Shown here in pieces: positions 51,235-63,404 of a stretch of DNA of 64,000 nt. Positions within the stretch are counted from its first letter, which is position 1, and each line of letters starts with the position of its first letter. The DNA is taken from NCBI RefSeq assembly GCF_009649955.1, contig NZ_CP045875.1, positions 1,345,501-1,409,500 of the forward strand. The letters are read 5' to 3'. The notes beneath the pieces are model-generated. The model saw only the letters and a list, made by a program, of their open reading frames with translations, made no database searches and was not told where the DNA came from. The stretch comes from Heliorestis convoluta. Lineage in GTDB: Bacteria > Bacillota > Desulfitobacteriia > Heliobacteriales > Heliobacteriaceae. Made by a program: the position numbers and the translations under genes.

Positions 51235-51385
51235 TTATTGTATTTGCTCTTCTTGTGCCATTCTTGGAGCTAAATTTATAATAAAATCTCTAATTGATTT
51301 TGCATTTATTAGTGCTTCCTGCATGTCTCTTTCTTCTAGCATTAATTGCATTGGATACCTAGGTTGCACTTGTTACATTATCCAT
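51235..51385 (-). pseudogene. HEPN toxin gene, internally deleted (copy A)
   Basis: Begins at an ATG overlapping the last codons of the MNT gene (MDNVTSA), then meets a stop; the other end encodes a normal HEPN C-terminus (QLMLEERDMQEALINAKSI, then RDFIINLAPRMAQEE). The central helices with the R-x4-6-H site are gone. Copy B at 62773 lost a different central part. Confidence 0.7.
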
Positions 51386-51701
51386 AGACCACCATACCTT
51401 CCTGCGCTATTTGGCGCTCTATAGATGGAGTATACTTTCGTTGATCGAATTTGTTTTTCTTGTTAACTATTACATCTACTGGCATTGTTTTTTTATCCCT
51501 AATTGCTTTGTTTATCAGTTTCATTGCATCGATTTCTCGGATATCAATATCCTCTTTTATTACTACAAAAATATCTAAGTTTGAATCAGCATGTGGTGTA
51601 CCAGTTGCATAGGAACCGAAAAGAAATATCTTTTCCACAGGGACAATCCTTATAATAGCGTCTATAAGTATTTGTATTTCTTCCTGTATTATCTTATCCA
51701 A
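51378..51701 (-). CDS. MNT-type nucleotidyltransferase antitoxin, copy A
   Basis: Minimal nucleotidyltransferase, 107 residues from a TTG at 51701 that follows GGAGG by eight bases. Motif GSYATGTPHADS-NLD: the first Asp of the usual SDxD catalytic pair is Asn here. In MNT/HEPN modules this enzyme AMPylates the HEPN RNase and so blocks it. Differs from copy B (62922) at six of 107 residues. Its HEPN partner downstream is deleted. Confidence 0.85.
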   Translation of the reverse strand: MDKIIQEEIQILIDAIIRIVPVEKIFLFGSYATGTPHADSNLDIFVVIKEDIDIREIDAMKLINKAIRDKKTMPVDVIVNKKNKFDQRKYTPSIERQIAQEGMVVYG

Positions 51702-51865
51702 CCTCAACACCTCCGCTTGCTTTCCATTTCCACTAATTCTAATACAGCAATTACCAATAGTCAATAATTTGATAAGTGCGTTTATGTGGGAACATGTCGA
51801 GGGAAGCTTTGTTCATCAGGTAGCTTACACTTTTATGTCTGCCTAATCGGGTATAGGTCACTCTT

Positions 51866-54811: not shown

Positions 54812-54846
54812 TTGATGAAAATTTGATGAAAACAATCCTGTAAGAT
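54812..54846 (+). promoter_or_regulatory. SARP-type tandem operator and -10 of the SLH gene
   Basis: Two head-to-tail 11-mers, TTGATGAAAAT (54812-54822) and TTGATGAAAAC (54823-54833), then 7 bp and the -10-like TAAGAT (54841-54846). No separate -35. The identical arrangement occurs at 57902-57936. Confidence 0.7.
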
Positions 54847-54915
54847 GAACTATGATTAAACGCTCCAAATGGAAGTCAAAGGATCAAAAACTCTATACAA
54901 GGGGTGAAAAGGAAA

Positions 54916-56415
54916 TTGCCAAATAAAAAAATAGTAAGTTTTTTCCTCACCCTAGCTCTGCTTGGTCCGCCATTGAATAGTGCTTTAGCGGAAGTGCATG
55001 ATAACATCCCATCAGCTACATCCATTGTTACCTTTACAACGATGTCTATACCTGAATCTTCAAGCAGTCCTCGCTCTTCTAATGAATCAGCACAGAATGA
55101 ATCGGCGCCTAGCGGTACAACTGAAAGTGCTACTGTTGTTATTGTCAACGGTGAAGAACAACTTGCTGGCATTGAAACTGTAAAAATGGAAGATAACAAA
55201 GTACTTGTCTCAATAGAAGTAGATGAAAATGTTATCAATCAAAAAATTACAGAAATTATTGAACAAAGAATGCTCCAACCTTTAGATGCACCACAACAGA
55301 ACATTGTAGAAATTCCTGTTAGTAATCAAAATGCTGATCAAATCGTTATCAACTTGACCCAAAATATGGTGAAAGCCATGGCCGATGAAGGCTTTAGACT
55401 CTCCATCAATAGCGGAAATACCAATTTTATCGTTCCTACACAAGAATTTGCACCTGAAGAAATTAGTAAAATTATTGGCACAACAGTAACAGATGTAACT
55501 GTCAACATCACCATAGAAAAAACAGATGCTCAGAAAACAGAAGAAATCAAGGAAAAAGCCAAAGAACAAGGTCTTGAAGTCTTAACGGCACCTATCCATT
55601 TTACCATTTCAGTAACAGGAAAGGATAGTCAAGGTCAGGTTCACAGCGTCAGGCTGTCTCAATATAGTCAATACACCCAACGGATAATCAAAATTCCCGA
55701 AGGTGTAGACTCATCCAAAATTACAACAGGGATTTATTACAATACTGATGGCTTTTTGTCCCACATCCCTACTGAAGTTTTTACCGACAACAATGGGAAC
55801 TGGTATGCTACAATGAATTCATTAACAGACTCAGACTATACCGTCGTCTATAACCCTGTAACTGTTGAAGCGGTTGCCAATCATTGGTCAAAAGACCATG
55901 TCAACGATATAGCATCCCGCTTGATTATCAAGAATCCTGCAACTTTTCAGCCCGACCAGGCTATTACGCGCGGTGAATTCGCCGAGTACATCACCAAGGC
56001 CCTAGGAATTTATCGTACTCAAAAAGCTCGAGAAGGTATTTTCAGTGACATAGAAAGCCATCACCCCCTGGGTGATGCAATTACCATTGCCTCTGATTAC
56101 AATCTTATACAAGGTTATCCCGATAGAACCTTCCGTTCCCATAATATCATTACACGCGAAGAAGCTATAAACTTATATGCTAGAGCCATGACAATCGTTG
56201 CCTTGGAAAAGGAACGGAATCAGCTTATTGAAAATTACAGTGACAAAGAAAAAATCTCCCCCTGGGCCTATGATGGCGTACACAAAGTCATCAGCGCTGG
56301 AATTTTTAAAGGAAAAACAAGCGAAACTATAAACCCACAAGATATTTTTACCTACGCAGAAGCAGCTACAGCCATTAGAAATCTTTTGACAGAAGCCACC
56401 TTGATCAATCAATAA
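54916..56415 (+). CDS. Exported SLH-domain surface protein, about 500 aa
   Basis: Signal peptide (NKKIVSFFLTLALLG...NSALAE), a Ser-rich stretch, a beta-rich middle with several similar strands (VVIVNGEEQLAGIE, IVINLTQNMVKAM), and three C-terminal SLH repeats: NHWSKDHVNDIASR, FSDIESHHPLGDAI and YSDKEKISPWAYDGV, each with an ITRGE/ITREE-type motif. Anchors to wall polymer. TTG 54916 follows AAGGGG by 11 bases; GTG 54904 is the alternative. It has the SARP-type operator 65-100 bp upstream and is the first surface gene of the 54-62 kb module. Confidence 0.87.
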   Translation: MPNKKIVSFFLTLALLGPPLNSALAEVHDNIPSATSIVTFTTMSIPESSSSPRSSNESAQNESAPSGTTESATVVIVNGEEQLAGIETVKMEDNKVLVSIEVDENVINQKITEIIEQRMLQPLDAPQQNIVEIPVSNQNADQIVINLTQNMVKAMADEGFRLSINSGNTNFIVPTQEFAPEEISKIIGTTVTDVTVNITIEKTDAQKTEEIKEKAKEQGLEVLTAPIHFTISVTGKDSQGQVHSVRLSQYSQYTQRIIKIPEGVDSSKITTGIYYNTDGFLSHIPTEVFTDNNGNWYATMNSLTDSDYTVVYNPVTVEAVANHWSKDHVNDIASRLIIKNPATFQPDQAITRGEFAEYITKALGIYRTQKAREGIFSDIESHHPLGDAITIASDYNLIQGYPDRTFRSHNIITREEAINLYARAMTIVALEKERNQLIENYSDKEKISPWAYDGVHKVISAGIFKGKTSETINPQDIFTYAEAATAIRNLLTEATLINQ

Positions 56416-56436
56416 GAAAAAATGAAAAATGAATCA

Positions 56437-56550
56437 AAAAGCCCCTGAAGCTGGCAAAATGATATGCTCCCCTTGTGGTAGACAGTTAAAATAAAAAAAC
56501 TGTCCACCATAAGGAGGAGCATATCAAAAAGGCCGATCAGTGGCTTTTTC
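56437..56550. repeat. Large palindrome: MITE-like insert inside a terminator
   Basis: Inner arms GATATGCTCC-x-CTT-x-TGGTAGACAGTT (56461-56487) and their complement (56498-56525) around an 11-nt A-rich loop. Outer arms AAAAAGCC-c-CTGA (56437-56449) pair with TCAG-t-GGCTTTTT (56537-56549), which would be an ordinary terminator for the SLH gene without the insert. Confidence 0.65.
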
Positions 56551-56707
56551 TATTACTTCTTTCCATTTCTTTTTTTTTTACCAACTGTCGATGGTAAAAT
56601 AGAGTATAGTAAAAGTGGACCATGAGGCTTCCTATCAACAGCAGTCCTACGACAGGGACGATAGTTACATGGTATTTCCCCGTAGATAGACACAGGAGGG
56701 AGCAAAA

Positions 56708-57814
56708 GTGATCTCGGCAATACTTATAGATGATATGAGACCAGCTCTGCGGGAGCTGGAATATTTACTGAAAAAGTATCCAGACATTTTTATTACAGGC
56801 GTCTACACAGATCCCATAACAGCCCTTGAGAAGGTTGGGGAACAAAAGCCCCAAGTTGTTTTTCTAGATATTCACATGCCCCAACTACAAGGCATCGATG
56901 CTGGCTCAAAGATATTAGATTTAAGTCCCCAGACAGATATTGTCTTTGTAACGGCCTTCGATCAGTATGCTTTAGAAGCTTTTGAACTCCATGCGCTGGA
57001 CTATTTGCTAAAGCCGATTGACGAAAAACGCTTGGAAAAGACGATTGCCCGTTTGCGTCAGAAGAGTTACATGTCCAAGGAGCAACCAGCAAAAAATTTG
57101 CTCATCCGTTGCTTCGGGCGCTTTCAGCTACGCTGGTACGGCCAGGTACCTGTTAAGTGGCGCTCAGAAAAAAACCGAGAGCTTTTTGCCTATCTGCTAC
57201 AAAATGCAGAGCGGAGTATCTCAAAAGATGAGCTCTTAGATCAGCTTTGGCCAGAAGGAGACCATACAAAAGCCCTTCGTCAGCTCTATAATGGCATTTA
57301 CTATATTCGCAAGACTTTGCAGGACTACGGGATCGATCACAGCCTGATTAGCATCGACAGCACCTATAACTTGAATCTCGGGCCGGTTGATCTAGATGTG
57401 AGCTATTATGATGAATTTGAAAAGGGCCATTATACTGAAAGCATCGAGGCGCTAGAAGGATTAGAGGCTCTTTATCAGGGCGATTATTTGGAAACTGAAT
57501 ATTATTCATGGGCTGATTTTGAGAGAGAGAGACTGAGTATTTTGCACCTGCAATGCCTGACCAAGCTTGCCCAGCTCTACCTTAAACAAAAGGACTTTGC
57601 CAAAGCAGAAAGCAAATTGCTCAAAGCCTATAGGAGAAACCCCTATGAAGAAAGGGTTACGGAGCTTTTGCTCAGACTTTACATAATAACAGGAGAAAAA
57701 ACAAAAGCCATCAAGCAGTTTGAAGCTTATTCTACGTTGATAAAGGATGAACTTGGGATCAAGCCCAGCCAAGAGCTCGTTGCGCTGTACCAAGTAGTAA
57801 CAGATAAAAGATAA
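56708..57814 (+). CDS. Response regulator with SARP/BTAD output domain
   Basis: REC domain 1-120: LIDD acidic pair, Asp54 in VFLDIHMP, Thr in VFVTAFDQY, Lys in LLKPIDEKR, close to LytTR-type regulators. Residues 135-235: winged helix of the OmpR/SARP kind (LLIRCFGRFQLRWYG, KWRSEKNRELFAYLL, SISKDELLDQLWPEG). Residues 240-368: BTAD helical domain (YQGDYLETEYYSWADFERER, YIITGEKTKAIKQFEAY, LIKDELGIKPSQE). SARP domains bind tandem direct repeats of 11-bp period; two such sites lie upstream (54812) and downstream (57902). GTG start, AGGAGG nine bases before. Probable partner: the kinase at 59535-62627. Confidence 0.9.
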   Translation: MISAILIDDMRPALRELEYLLKKYPDIFITGVYTDPITALEKVGEQKPQVVFLDIHMPQLQGIDAGSKILDLSPQTDIVFVTAFDQYALEAFELHALDYLLKPIDEKRLEKTIARLRQKSYMSKEQPAKNLLIRCFGRFQLRWYGQVPVKWRSEKNRELFAYLLQNAERSISKDELLDQLWPEGDHTKALRQLYNGIYYIRKTLQDYGIDHSLISIDSTYNLNLGPVDLDVSYYDEFEKGHYTESIEALEGLEALYQGDYLETEYYSWADFERERLSILHLQCLTKLAQLYLKQKDFAKAESKLLKAYRRNPYEERVTELLLRLYIITGEKTKAIKQFEAYSTLIKDELGIKPSQELVALYQVVTDKR

Positions 57815-57851
57815 GCTTGAACTAGAATGAAAATGCAATATCTCTTTTGGG

Positions 57852-57891
57852 AGCCCTCGGTCTGTTACGTTTGGCAGCTGGGCTTTTTTTT
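57852..57891 (+). terminator. Terminator of the response-regulator gene
   Basis: AGCCC and GGGCT close an imperfect stem, followed by eight T. Ten bp later the SARP-type operator begins. Confidence 0.55.
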
Positions 57892-57901
57892 ATAAGCTTT
57901 T

Positions 57902-57936
57902 TTGATGAAAATTTGATGAAAACGTCTTGGTAGAAT
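57902..57936 (+). promoter_or_regulatory. SARP-type tandem operator and -10 of the secreted-protein operon
   Basis: TTGATGAAAAT (57902-57912) and TTGATGAAAAC (57913-57923), then 7 bp and TAGAAT (57931-57936). Same sequence and spacing as at 54812-54846; the sequences on either side differ. Confidence 0.7.
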
Positions 57937-58119: not shown

Positions 58120-58614
58120 GTGAAAAAGTTAATCATTGTTATAGCAACTTTATTTCTGGTCTTTTCGGTTGCAGGAGCAGCTTCCGCAGCAACAGCTGAC
58201 AGCACAGTAACGTTCAGAACTGAAAGTGCAGCTGTGGGTATGTCCGTAGGCGATGTAGATGTAGGTGTAGTTAAATTTGGAGATTTCGAAACTGGTACTA
58301 TTGGTCTAACATTTACAAATATAGCCATTGATTACAATCTTAAAGCATCGGTAGAACCAGGTGATCCTAATGATTGGGGAGAACTAGGTTTAACATTAAT
58401 AACGGATGATAGCATTCCTCTTGCAGGTCAAGTGGCTATTAATTTTGCAACACAACAGAGTGCAGGTTCTCCGAGGGTGGTAACAACTATTGCTGAAGGA
58501 ACTACAAGCCGTAATATAGACTTTGAGCTAACATTAGGCCCCCGTGGTTCAGTGCCCTATGATACAGAATTTGACATAAAAGTTGATTGGGAGTTACAAC
58601 CAGTGAATTTTTAA
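58120..58614 (+). CDS. Small secreted beta-rich protein
   Basis: Signal peptide KKLIIVIATLFLVFSVAGAA with ASAAT cleavage. Mature part about 140 residues, Thr/Val/Gly-rich, no Cys, strand-like pattern (STVTFRTESAAVGMSVGDVD, TGTIGLTFTNIAIDYNL, SRNIDFELTLGPRGSV), similar in style to WxL- or pilin-like wall proteins, yet no family is recognised. GTG start 11 bases after AAGGAG. First gene after the second SARP-type site. Confidence 0.72.
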   Translation: MKKLIIVIATLFLVFSVAGAASAATADSTVTFRTESAAVGMSVGDVDVGVVKFGDFETGTIGLTFTNIAIDYNLKASVEPGDPNDWGELGLTLITDDSIPLAGQVAINFATQQSAGSPRVVTTIAEGTTSRNIDFELTLGPRGSVPYDTEFDIKVDWELQPVNF

Positions 58615-58619
58615 GATAA

Positions 58620-58656
58620 ACCCATCTCAAAGAAAAAAGTTTGAGATGGGTCCTTT
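58620..58656 (+). terminator. Hairpin between the two secreted-protein genes
   Basis: ACCCATCTCAAA and TTTGAGATGGGT form a 12-bp perfect stem followed by CCTTTTT. It may attenuate the downstream gene, so that the first protein is made in excess. Confidence 0.8.
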
Positions 58657-58696
58657 TTGTACGCTGACACCAATTGTTCCATAAGGAGTGGCTAAA

Positions 58697-59560
58697 TTGA
58701 GAAAAAAAACATTTTTTACAATGCTATTATTCTTTTTTTTAATACCCCTTCATGCTCATGCAGATGAGGGCAAAGGTTTTTTAGTCGGCCCATCAAGAAT
58801 TGAAGCAGAGCAACCTTTAACACCTGGGAACACTTATCATCTTCCTCCTCACACCGTATACAATAACACAGCCAACAAGATGCAGGTAACCGTCAGTATA
58901 AATGAACAAGGGGAGGGCTTACTGGCCCCTCCGAAGTGGTTTGAACACACTCCCGCCAATCAAGAGGTACTGTCAGGAGAAACAGGCGAATTTGCAAGCA
59001 CGATAACAGTACCAAAAGATGCTGAACCAGGCCATTACATCGCATGGTTCAGGTTTTACGGCGAACCGTCACAAAGGGGTGCTTTTACACACACTTTTGC
59101 TTTGAGCGTTCCTTTTTTGTTTGAAGTGTTACATGCCGAACAGGCCGATTCTACTGCGAGTTATACGGAACAAGAAATTATTTTGGAAATAGGTTCAAGT
59201 ACAGCCATTGTTCAGGGTAAAGAGTTCACCCTTGATGCACCGCCCTATATAAACTCTGCAACTTCTAGAACCATGGTACCCCTTCGATATGTTAGTGAAC
59301 AGTTGCAAGCTGTGGTGCAGTGGGTACCAGAATCACAGCAGGTAATCATCCATACCGAAGAAGTAGAAATTGTTTTAGCCAAGGATTCTGAAAGAGTTCT
59401 TATAAATGGCGTCGAATTCACCTTAGACAGTCCATTAGCAATCAAAAACGGTAGAGCTTTTGTTCCGTTACGATTTGTAAGCGAGGTCTTAGATGCTACT
59501 GTGCAATGGAAAGCCGAAGAACAGCGTATCATTATTAAAAGGGTGTCGTTAAGGGGATAG
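58697..59560 (+). CDS. Secreted protein with two copper-amine-oxidase-N-like domains
   Basis: Signal peptide RKKTFFTMLLFFFLIPLHAHA. Residues 30-150 form an immunoglobulin-like, DUF916-type region (GPSRIEAEQPLTPGNTYHLP, AEPGHYIAWFRFYG). C-terminal 120 residues: two CuAO_N1 repeats (SRTMVPLRYVSEQLQAVVQW, GRAFVPLRFVSEVLDATVQW), domains common in clostridial wall proteins. TTG 58697 is eight bases after AAGGAG. Its 3' end overlaps the convergent kinase gene by 26 bp. Confidence 0.8.
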   Translation: MRKKTFFTMLLFFFLIPLHAHADEGKGFLVGPSRIEAEQPLTPGNTYHLPPHTVYNNTANKMQVTVSINEQGEGLLAPPKWFEHTPANQEVLSGETGEFASTITVPKDAEPGHYIAWFRFYGEPSQRGAFTHTFALSVPFLFEVLHAEQADSTASYTEQEIILEIGSSTAIVQGKEFTLDAPPYINSATSRTMVPLRYVSEQLQAVVQWVPESQQVIIHTEEVEIVLAKDSERVLINGVEFTLDSPLAIKNGRAFVPLRFVSEVLDATVQWKAEEQRIIIKRVSLRG

Positions 59561-62500
59561 ACCAAGTAACCTCTGTACCCCTATTGGGACTGCTACTGAT
59601 TTGAAGGCCTTTTCCATAAAGCTTCTTAAGCCTGTTGTCTATATTGGACAGACCAATACCGCCTTCTGACTCATCTGTAAAAAGACTTCTTAATTTATCC
59701 TGCTCCATCCCTACACCATCATCTTTTACCTGAAAGAGCAACATCTCTTTATCCTTTTTGATAGAGATTTCAACTCGACCTCCTTCTCTTTTTGGCAGTA
59801 TACCGTGGAGTATGGCATTTTCCACCACTGGTTGCAGCATCAATATGGGGACTTTAACCTCTGCGTCATCGGGATAGCAAAGGCTCACTTCAAGGCGTTC
59901 CTCATGCTGTGCCTTTTCTATATGCAGGTATGCCTTTACCAGCTCAATTTCTTGCTTTAAAGGGACAACCTGGCTTAATCCCTTAAAGTCGAAGCTACAC
60001 CTAAGATAATTGCTGAAATCCACCAAAAGCTTTCTCGCCTGCTCCACGTCATAACGGGAGATGGAAATGAAGGTATTGATGGCATTGTATAAGAAATGAG
60101 GCTTAATCTGAGCTTGTAAAAAGGCCAACTCGGAAGCGATTGACTTGTCCACTGACTGTTTTAGCTGAATAAGGATATTTACTCTTGCCAGAAGCTCTTC
60201 TGTATCAAAGGGCTTGGCAAGATAGTCATTGGCACCAGATTCTATACCCATTACGATATCCTGCGTTGAGGTCCTAGCTGTCAACATCAAAATAGGTATC
60301 TCAGAAATTGTATAATTCTTCCTAATCTTACGGCAGATCTCATAGCCTGACAATCCTGGCATCATGACGTCAAGAATAATGAGAGATAAATTTTTTTCCC
60401 TTTTAAATTCTTCGAAGAAAGACTCACTGGAAGTAACTGCGGTAATTGCGTAGTTTTCCATTTTTAGAATATTGGTAAGAGCCATCAGATTGGCTTCATT
60501 ATCATCTAGCACCATAATCTTAGGACCCCTCCCCTGATGTCTGAAGGGGAATTCATCAATATACGTTTGGTTGTATCCAGCAGCTATTTCTTCTGCTGTT
60601 TCAAACTTCCATTCTTTCTCCTTGGAAGATGAAAGTTCCGTTGAGACTGGTACAGTAACATAGAATTTTGAACCTTCTCCAACTTTAGATGCAACCCATA
60701 TTTTTCCGCCATGGGCTTCAACCAGATATCCAGTAATAGGAAGCCCCAGTCCTGTACCTCTGTTTTTTCTAGTAAGGGAATCTTCCAGCTGTAAAAAGTG
60801 TTGAAATATTTCGTTAAGCTTGTCGTCGGGAATGCCGATTCCTGTATCCTCCACACAAATTTCCACCATTTCACCCGTTTTGGTAGCTGATACTTTGATG
60901 TATCCTGCTTCAGTGAATTTTATAGCATTGCCCATAAGATTGTACAGAATCTGCAGCAATCTGTTTTCATCCACATAAATATAGGGGAGGTCATCAGGAA
61001 TGTCTATCAACATTTCTATCCTTTCAGATTTATTTAACCCTCCAAGGACTTTTACAACACCTTCAACAGTGCGTTTCAGATTCACAGGCTGAGGTGTCAA
61101 TTTTAGATCAAAGTTTTTGATTTTGGCATAATCTAGAATGTCATTGATCAAATTGGTAAGACGTTTACCACTACTTATAATCGTGTCAAGAGCTGCCTTC
61201 TGGTTTTTATTGACAACCCCTTCGGATCCTCTAGATACTCCGTCTGCAATGCTTATCATAGCATTGAGGGGTGTCCTCAGTTCATGAGAAGTATTGGCAA
61301 GAAATTCATCCTTTAGCTTGTCTAGCTTCATTAGCTTTTCCGACAACATTTTTGTGTCTTGAAAGGCTTGTGAAAATCTTCTTGCCAGAATAAAGGCATT
61401 TAAGAACAGCATAATTAAAAATCCCAGGGATGAAAATTCACCAAAACCATGAAATATGATGTTGTTATGGTAAAGTATGTCATGAACACCAACCAATACA
61501 CCGATAAAAGTTCCAATTAGTATAAGGATAGAGTCGCTCTTTAAATTCGAATAGGCTTTTATAGTGCAAGTTATTGTATAAAGAACTATAACCAATACTA
61601 TAGCTTCAGCAAAAAAAGCAAGCTTTGTGAATAAGCTTATGGGTATTAACACCGTAACTATGGACATTACAAAGGCATAAAGTACAAATGCCCTAAGCAC
61701 CTTTTTTGAAAATTGTTCTGGAAAAAGCTTGCCTATAAGCAGGGCAAAGACAACTGGAAACCAGTAAGCTGAAAGGTAATCTATGGTAACTTTATGGTAA
61801 TAGGTAATCCAGGTGAAAATATTGCTTATAGAGTAATCCCCATATATTACAACCCTTGCCATAGCAATAATACACAACAAAACAAAGTATAAGCTGCTCT
61901 TATCCTCCCGTCTCATAGAGAAAATGCTAAGATAATAGAGTGCCATAATAAAGAATGCTCCAATTAAGAACAAATCTTTATAGGCTATATTTCGGTCATA
62001 TGCTTTAATGCCATCTACAGAACCCATATAGATGGGATACCAAAGACCTCCACGAGCATAAGAAAAATTTGAAACCTGAATAATAATATCAAAATTACTT
62101 GTTTGTGGAGTGAAATCAAAAGTAACAGGTCGGTATTCTGGTATAAAGTTAGCTTTGTTCGCACTGACTTGACCATTCGACGCAAGCAATTGATCATCTA
62201 TGTAAAGACTATAGGCAGTGGAAACTGTAGGCATTCTTATAGATAGGGGTTGTCCTTCATGAGCGTTGATAACTTTCAATCTATAAGTTGCATATCCAAA
62301 GCCCGGCAGGTTCTTGTCATTGACTGTATAAGCATTCCATACTTTAGGTACTTGGGCCATCAAATCAGGTTCTACGTTGTTATTATGATTATGAAGATCA
62401 TCGTAAGTAAGCAGTTTTGACCAGTAAAATTCCCATTCACCATTAAGGCTCATCATGCTATCATCGGTACTTGGATTCCAACCAGCAAGGTCTAGAGTAC

Positions 62501-62627
62501 CGTCGTCAATGTTTTTTAGGGGATTGTAACCTTTTGCAAGTATGTAAAATGACCCCAATAGTAGGCTAACAATAATGAAACTCACTATGGCTTGTCTGTA
62601 TATTTTTTTATTTTTGAATAATCTCAA
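59535..62627 (-). CDS. 7TM hybrid sensor kinase with two transmitter modules
   Basis: 1030 residues. N-terminal helix (12-31); extracytoplasmic jelly-roll domain of the 7TMR-DISM type (about 45-205; LNGEWEFYW, PGFGYATYRLKV, YSLYIDDQLLASNG); seven helices (about 215-420); HisKA with His448 in TSHELRTP; HATPase with LMGNAIKFT, DTGIGIP and GTGLGLPI; REC with Asp753 in IILDVMMP; then a LytS/YehU-type kinase with His844 in AQIKPHFLYNAIN and a second ATPase (VENAILHG, DDGVGMEQ, GGIGLSNI). All key residues are intact. Likely signals to the REC-SARP regulator at 56708; the LytS-type end suits its LytTR-like REC. Confidence 0.93.
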   Translation of the reverse strand: MRLFKNKKIYRQAIVSFIIVSLLLGSFYILAKGYNPLKNIDDGTLDLAGWNPSTDDSMMSLNGEWEFYWSKLLTYDDLHNHNNNVEPDLMAQVPKVWNAYTVNDKNLPGFGYATYRLKVINAHEGQPLSIRMPTVSTAYSLYIDDQLLASNGQVSANKANFIPEYRPVTFDFTPQTSNFDIIIQVSNFSYARGGLWYPIYMGSVDGIKAYDRNIAYKDLFLIGAFFIMALYYLSIFSMRREDKSSLYFVLLCIIAMARVVIYGDYSISNIFTWITYYHKVTIDYLSAYWFPVVFALLIGKLFPEQFSKKVLRAFVLYAFVMSIVTVLIPISLFTKLAFFAEAIVLVIVLYTITCTIKAYSNLKSDSILILIGTFIGVLVGVHDILYHNNIIFHGFGEFSSLGFLIMLFLNAFILARRFSQAFQDTKMLSEKLMKLDKLKDEFLANTSHELRTPLNAMISIADGVSRGSEGVVNKNQKAALDTIISSGKRLTNLINDILDYAKIKNFDLKLTPQPVNLKRTVEGVVKVLGGLNKSERIEMLIDIPDDLPYIYVDENRLLQILYNLMGNAIKFTEAGYIKVSATKTGEMVEICVEDTGIGIPDDKLNEIFQHFLQLEDSLTRKNRGTGLGLPITGYLVEAHGGKIWVASKVGEGSKFYVTVPVSTELSSSKEKEWKFETAEEIAAGYNQTYIDEFPFRHQGRGPKIMVLDDNEANLMALTNILKMENYAITAVTSSESFFEEFKREKNLSLIILDVMMPGLSGYEICRKIRKNYTISEIPILMLTARTSTQDIVMGIESGANDYLAKPFDTEELLARVNILIQLKQSVDKSIASELAFLQAQIKPHFLYNAINTFISISRYDVEQARKLLVDFSNYLRCSFDFKGLSQVVPLKQEIELVKAYLHIEKAQHEERLEVSLCYPDDAEVKVPILMLQPVVENAILHGILPKREGGRVEISIKKDKEMLLFQVKDDGVGMEQDKLRSLFTDESEGGIGLSNIDNRLKKLYGKGLQISSSPNRGTEVTWSIPLTTPF

Positions 62628-62772: not shown

Positions 62773-62929
62773 TTACTCTTCTTGTGCCGTTCTTGGAGCT
62801 ATATTTACAATAAAATCTCTAACAAATTATTTCGATAGGAACAGGCTGCATCTTAAGAAGATACTCTGCACTCATTAAATCCATTTCTGCAAACTTTCGC
62901 CATTCCTTTGCACTTGTTACATTATCCAT
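62773..62929 (-). pseudogene. HEPN toxin gene, internally deleted (copy B)
   Basis: ATG 62929 overlaps the MNT stop by eight bases. The first 36 residues are a good HEPN start: SAKEWRKFAEMDLMSAEYLL then KMQPVPIEIIC, followed by a stop and, in another frame, the last 15 residues RDFIVNIAPRTAQEE, matching copy A. The middle with the catalytic R-x4-6-H is missing. Confidence 0.75.
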
Positions 62930-63245
62930 AGACCACCATACCTTCCTGCGCTATTTGGCGCTCTATAGATGGAGTATACTTTCGTTGATCGGATTTGTTT
63001 TTCTTGCTAACTATTACATCTACTGGCATTGTTTTTTTATCCCTAATTGCTTTGTTTATCAGTTTCATCGCATCGATTTCTCGAATATCAGCATCCTCTT
63101 TTATTACAACAAAAATATCTAAGTCTGAATCAGCATGTGGTGTACCAGTTGCATAGGAACCGAAAAGAAATATCTGTTCCACAGGGACAATCCTTATAAT
63201 AGCGTCTATAAGTATTTGTAATTCTTCCTGTATTATCTTATCCAA
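62922..63245 (-). CDS. MNT-type nucleotidyltransferase antitoxin, copy B
   Basis: 107 residues from TTG 63245 with a GGAGG eight bases upstream. Intact catalytic motif GSYATGTPHADS-DLD, then VDVIV and a late acidic residue. Expected role: AMPylation of a HEPN RNase, whose gene just downstream is broken. Six residue differences from copy A, and the DNA identity extends past both gene ends. Confidence 0.87.
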   Translation of the reverse strand: MDKIIQEELQILIDAIIRIVPVEQIFLFGSYATGTPHADSDLDIFVVIKEDADIREIDAMKLINKAIRDKKTMPVDVIVSKKNKSDQRKYTPSIERQIAQEGMVVYG

Positions 63246-63404
63246 CCTCAACACCTCCGCTTGCTTTCCATTTCCACTAATTTTAATACAGTAATTGCCA
63301 ATAGTCAATAATTTGATAGGTGCGTGTCAGGGGTACTTTTATTGATATGACATGACGTCCTGAGTCATACACCATCTACCCTATCTCCTCAACCCCTTCA
63401 AAAA

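Follow-up and report, generated by a model that had tools for sequence, protein, structure and literature searches.

Identical 11-bp direct repeats on both sides of a receiver-linked SARP regulator, very probably a switch for cell-surface genes in Firmicutes

Within a 64,000-nucleotide stretch of the Heliorestis convoluta genome, referred to here as the window, two identical 22-bp sequences flank a gene for a response regulator with a SARP output (REC-SARP), and the question raised by this arrangement is which protein reads the repeats, and with what effect. Each consists of two 11-bp direct repeats, TTGATGAAAAT-TTGATGAAAAC (in full TTGATGAAAATTTGATGAAAAC); the copies, both exact and both on the + strand, are found at 54812-54833 and 57902-57923, 3.1 kb apart. 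A sequence-only reading of this DNA had already reported the tandem at these two positions only, and this holds: allowing up to 3 mismatches, no third copy is present in the window (0 expected from shuffled sequences) or on either strand of the 3,218,981-base genome. The two copies are also the sole period-11 repeats of the window with at least 10/11 identity. A looser whole-genome pattern, including the -10 element, produced three weak sites with 3 mismatches, versus one for a reversed-pattern control: no further regulon targets are therefore claimed.

Each tandem, indicated below as operator 1 or 2, is followed on the same strand by a -10-like hexamer starting 7 bp past it, TAAGAT (54841-54846) and TAGAAT (57931-57936), respectively. 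At 16-18 bp upstream of these hexamers only AAATTT, AAAATT and GAAAAT are found, A/T-rich sequence belonging to the repeats, so that no -35 is available at either promoter; both the exact spacing and the missing -35, as originally described, are confirmed by the sequence. When the two promoters are aligned, identity spans the 22 bp and stops at the tandem boundaries, which rules out a duplicated promoter, in agreement with the earlier remark that the flanks differ. Scanning the region with a promoter consensus gave -35/-10 promoters in no higher number than in shuffled sequences and missed both operators, as expected for promoters devoid of a -35. Between the regulator gene and operator 2 sits a probable rho-independent terminator (57849-57891, + strand), formed by a hairpin of -15.6 kcal/mol and a T run; hairpins occupy the same regulator/operator interval in the related loci L132, L129 and L037.

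Operator 1 precedes a gene for a surface protein (54904-56415, + strand; 503 aa as listed) with three SLH domains (Pfam E 4.5e-31), for which a TTG at 54916, located behind AAGGGGTG, is a likelier start than the listed one. The unit following operator 2, also on the + strand, encodes a 164-aa protein with a signal-peptide-like N-terminus and no Pfam family (58120-58614) and a protein, probably exported, that has copper-amine-oxidase N-terminal domains (58688-59560; PF07833, E 4.6e-42). The claim that both units encode exported wall proteins is thus established for one of them: 54904 only is recognised as a wall or S-layer protein, while for the 58120/58688 unit just the export is likely. For the 58120 protein no clear homologue was found among 83 genomes of the class, and its AF2 model, taken alone, has a pLDDT of 40; PADLOC gave no match for either 58120 or 58688. 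It looks as if the target gene of operator 2 had been swapped, and the operator had stayed. A 128-aa nucleotidyltransferase-like protein is encoded twice on the - strand, in near-identical copies (51378-51764 and 62922-63308) located 11.5 kb apart, one on each side of the module.

The SARP DNA-binding module is known mainly from antibiotic control in Streptomyces. The protein encoded between the two operators (56708-57814, + strand; 368 aa) features it in full, as had been anticipated: Pfam recognises a Response_reg domain, then an OmpR-type winged helix (Trans_reg_C, E 7.6e-9) and a BTAD domain (E 4e-17), the last two both above the Pfam cut-off. The receiver retains the phosphorylatable Asp, the acidic pair, the Thr and the Lys (D54, D8 and D9, T82, K102), all invariant across the eight close members aligned. 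By its domains, the protein is classed as a SARP-domain response regulator. No LytTR DNA-binding domain was matched in the Pfam scan; a LytTR-type site was also considered for the tandem, and rejected, as the regulator has no such domain and the period is wrong.

The AF2 model of the regulator (pLDDT 84.9) finds its best Foldseek PDB match in the AfsR initiation complex 8k60 (TM 0.77 on target), and AfsR is matched by sequence too, in the C-terminal half (E 1.9e-9). The box bound by AfsR comprises two 11-bp repeats (22 bp) and covers the -35, with its centre at -29.5; the protein forms a bridge between sigma region 4 and RNA polymerase (PMC10936776). The geometry found here is the one reported for SARPs, as the first reading had proposed: direct repeats with an 11-bp period, at presumed targets both in the window and in orthologues, with the 3' repeat, in close orthologues, at a fixed 7 bp from the -10 and the tandem over the -35 place. 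The AfsR residues contacting sigma region 4 (E68, D71, E76) and the DNA backbone (W74, R94, K95) (PMC10936776) align with E175, D178, E183 and W181, R201, K202 of the regulator. The base-contacting T88 and R92 are replaced by N195 and Y199, in line with a repeat sequence unlike that of AfsR. R59, needed in AfsR, is not kept, N166 being found in its place.

A candidate sensor is encoded 1.7 kb from the regulator, in convergent orientation and outside the operon of the regulator: a 7TMR-DISM hybrid histidine kinase (59535-62627, - strand), where Pfam finds HisKA, HATPase and REC, then a second kinase module of the LytS type (His_kinase, HATPase). Its orthologue directly precedes the regulator gene in L129, L132, L034 and L037; in L130 and L131 this place is taken by a shorter kinase, matching parts of that of the window. 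A kinase is therefore encoded with the regulator in six orthologous loci, and the 59535-62627 protein is likely the partner sensor, to which phosphotransfer may be ascribed.

Related bacteria keep the layout of sensor-regulator pair and tandem operator. Close orthologues of the regulator (46-62% identity) are found in ten other genomes. For six of them (L129, L132, L113, L037, L130, L131) a tandem, counterpart of operator 2, lies 78-125 bp past the regulator stop; in L165 it lies 565 bp after the stop, beyond an intervening gene described below, and in L166 it precedes what looks like an operon ending with the regulator gene, about 2.5 kb upstream of the latter, a position which suggests autoregulation. 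All sites in genomes with close orthologues share the order 22-bp tandem, 7 bp, TANNNT, mostly beside the regulator gene. At L131:8886-8918 three 11-bp repeats, rather than two, precede the -10, a number also seen at some SARP sites of Streptomyces.

The exact degenerate motif is present in 3 of the 83 genomes of the class, exactly the three with an orthologue, and in none of the remaining 80. Within the phylum it is present in 5 of 399 genomes, all five among the seven with an orthologue of at least 46% identity, and in none of the 392 lacking one: in these collections, operator and -10 occur only together with a close orthologue, and not at unrelated promoters of genomes devoid of the regulator, a check which the first reading withstands. 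The hypergeometric figure for this co-occurrence, 2.6e-10, is circular in part, some of these genomes having served to build the motif; its independent part consists of the complete absence elsewhere and of G290, a new genome (so is G181, which is closely related to G062). The two Thermincola genomes, G062 and G181, do not fit the simple operator-beside-regulator picture: each has a 59-60% orthologue, with no recognisable tandem beside the regulator gene, and GGGAG-type tandems on a different contig or at a distance of tens of kb. These are located at L127:8995 and L128:8419 for G062, and at C3:83000 and C3:7168 for G181; a GGGAG-type tandem of G062 precedes a gene of the pseudo-receiver kind described below and a 1586-aa SLH protein.

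A hybrid kinase, REC-SARP, hairpin, operator and surface gene recur in this order; genes next to the kinase, regulator and surface genes vary among genomes. In most orthologue loci the genes downstream encode S-layer-homology or other exported proteins: SLH proteins of 1,600-1,950 aa in L129, L132 and L131 (assigned, for L131, by homology with the L128 protein, whose SLH domains come from a scan), a CWB2 cell-wall-binding protein in L113, and, in L130, small proteins in a row that look exported, accompanied by signal-peptidase-like genes. This last locus, from Desulfotomaculaceae (L130:1349-9889), features two signal-peptidase-like genes past the operator and resembles SipW/TasA-type matrix clusters. 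A sensor-regulator-surface module in Firmicutes, as first predicted, is thus supported by the tandems of the orthologues, by the surface genes downstream of most of them and by the AfsR-like fold.

In six loci the first gene past the operator encodes a receiver relative of 115-140 aa (L129:9514-9870, L132:9032-9376, L131:8983-9354, L113:9102-9488, L169:7951-8352, L017:971-1333); in L165 such a gene (L165:5250-5606) stands between regulator and operator. These proteins have Arg or Lys in place of the phosphorylated Asp (FIRLG for FLDI) and no longer possess the KP lysine (YLLCP, YLLYP): judged by sequence, they are pseudo-receivers. A feedback on the kinase or the regulator may be guessed as their role. 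None is encoded in the window, and a search of the leader past operator 2 found no leftover of one.

Tandems were also sought without assuming any sequence, as 9-mer repeats (at least 8/9 identical) with a -10-like hexamer at the SARP distance, for periods 7-19, in 35 REC-SARP loci (386 kb) and in 63 loci around other receiver genes (955 kb). Period 11 gave 23 matches in the former and 6 in the latter (60/Mb versus 6/Mb, p 2.5e-8), and no other period differed nearly as much; the -10 offset is most often +18, counted from where the second repeat starts, which is the SARP distance. About half of the 35 loci, including those from Paenibacillus, show no tandem at the scan threshold, partly because many are covered with flanks of 1.5 kb only. 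More distant Firmicutes REC-SARPs feature tandems of other sequence and nearly the same geometry, the -10 being, for several of them, one base off the 7-bp spacing: the repeats are TGTTCAGA in L114 and L115, TTTAGTG in L169, TTTGTTGAG in L009 and CATTTAGGG-like in L014, L016 and L017.

The sequence of the operator may be compared with that of the recognition helix. Helices of the AIRQLYNG type pair with TTGRTGAAA operators (six regulators), and those of the AVHQLHN type with TTTGGGAGA operators (three regulators). In the tree the AIRQLYNG group forms one clade, indicating a single switch of helix and operator, and a repeated covariation of the two was accordingly rejected. The Thermincola genomes are an exception to the pairing, since an RQLYNG regulator coexists with GGGAG sites; no HQLHN-type regulator was found in them. 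In L114 and L115 a Thr occupies the position of AfsR T88, and the repeats contain GTTCA, to be compared with CGTT(T/C)ATCG for AfsR, a match that is suggestive only. That the helix may set the sequence of the operator is put forward as a hypothesis.

Taken together, it is highly probable that the 56708-57814 protein has the 22-bp tandem for its operator, and that it is a SARP-type sigma adaptor which is phosphorylated by the 7TMR-DISM kinase and activates two surface-gene promoters. What is observed here is that the sites exist, are unique and are conserved with the regulator elsewhere, together with the geometry and the fold; from this we infer binding, phosphorylation, activation and the existence of a signal. 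The 59535-62627 kinase would sense this signal and phosphorylate Asp54 of the receiver; the activated SARP domain would bind as a side-by-side pair, one protomer per 11-bp repeat, covering the would-be -35 place, and would recruit sigma region 4 to promoters provided with a -10 element only. The regulon would include, in this genome, two promoters, that of the SLH surface protein (operator 1) and that of the 58120-58688 exported-protein unit (operator 2).

The GGGAG sites of Thermincola, having no adjacent regulator, could indicate that the tandem is bound by another nearby regulator, merely travelling along with the REC-SARP gene. This is improbable: apart from kinase, regulator and surface genes, the neighbours vary among genomes; scanned genomes devoid of the REC-SARP regulator do not have the motif; other REC-SARPs have tandems of their own; and the operator sequence shifts with the recognition helix, although with one switch on the tree. 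Slightly less probable still is that the regulator does bind the tandem, and represses, or only blocks the access of sigma, as the overlap of the site with the -35 position, open to a repressor as well, would permit. Promoters without any -35 need help, however, known SARPs placed at this position activate (PMC10936776), and the AfsR contacts to sigma region 4, E68, D71 and E76, are kept in the regulator. Finally, that two identical copies 3.1 kb apart represent a copied promoter fragment or a repeat element with no operator role is hardly credible, given that identity ends at the 22-bp boundaries, that other genera feature the same layout with diverged sequence and that the genome holds no further copies.

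As a probable activator acting through the tandem, the regulator may be set beside known systems. With the Streptomyces SARPs AfsR, ActII-ORF4, RedD and PimR it shares the winged-helix and BTAD pair, the 11-bp direct repeats by the -10 and over the -35 place, and most sigma- and backbone-contact residues; unlike them, it is joined to a phosphorylatable receiver and has a histidine kinase for likely partner, its presumed operator is TTGATGAAAAT rather than CGTT(T/C)ATCGNN, and its presumed targets are surface proteins in Firmicutes instead of antibiotic clusters. EmbR of Mycobacterium tuberculosis (Foldseek ranks 8-10) has the same winged-helix and BTAD fold, with a C-terminal FHA domain in contrast to the N-terminal receiver found here. 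The closest receivers are those of LytTR-type regulators (BtsR, LytR), with which the LytS-type His_kinase domain of the partner kinase is also shared; the SARP output, with no LytTR domain, and the 11-bp-period operator set the regulator apart from them. BrpL (SSA_0427) of Streptococcus sanguinis, a BTAD-containing regulator affecting glucan and biofilm (PMC5987052), is likewise a Firmicutes regulator acting on the cell surface; it was proposed as LuxR-like, in a report that includes no promoter or binding-site work (PMC5987052).

A search covering mainly the open literature found no study on operators of Firmicutes SARP/BTAD response regulators. The SARP domain pair and its geometry are already known; what appears to be new is their Firmicutes form, linked to a receiver and directed at surface genes, and the operators of this form. 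With an even chance of being right, it may be proposed that Firmicutes hold a widespread class of two-component systems that use a SARP domain, in place of a usual response-regulator output, to switch surface and S-layer genes via clade-specific 11-bp tandems at a constant distance before the -10, with a phosphorylation-dead pseudo-receiver often included in the target unit as built-in feedback or adaptor, and specificity set by a few helix positions, 191, 194, 195 and 199.

Very probably, then, a REC-SARP regulator switches on cell-surface genes in anaerobic Firmicutes via two identical 11-bp repeats shortly before the transcription start, the binding itself being predicted from the letters. 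SARP activation, the adaptation of sigma over a missing -35, would thus extend to phosphorelay control of Firmicutes cell-surface proteins, with operators given to the letter, a regulon of two promoters and candidate specificity residues identified by position, all open to direct testing. Since several REC-SARP clades each have their own tandem near the regulator, reading the sequence could reveal the targets of many regulators not yet studied.
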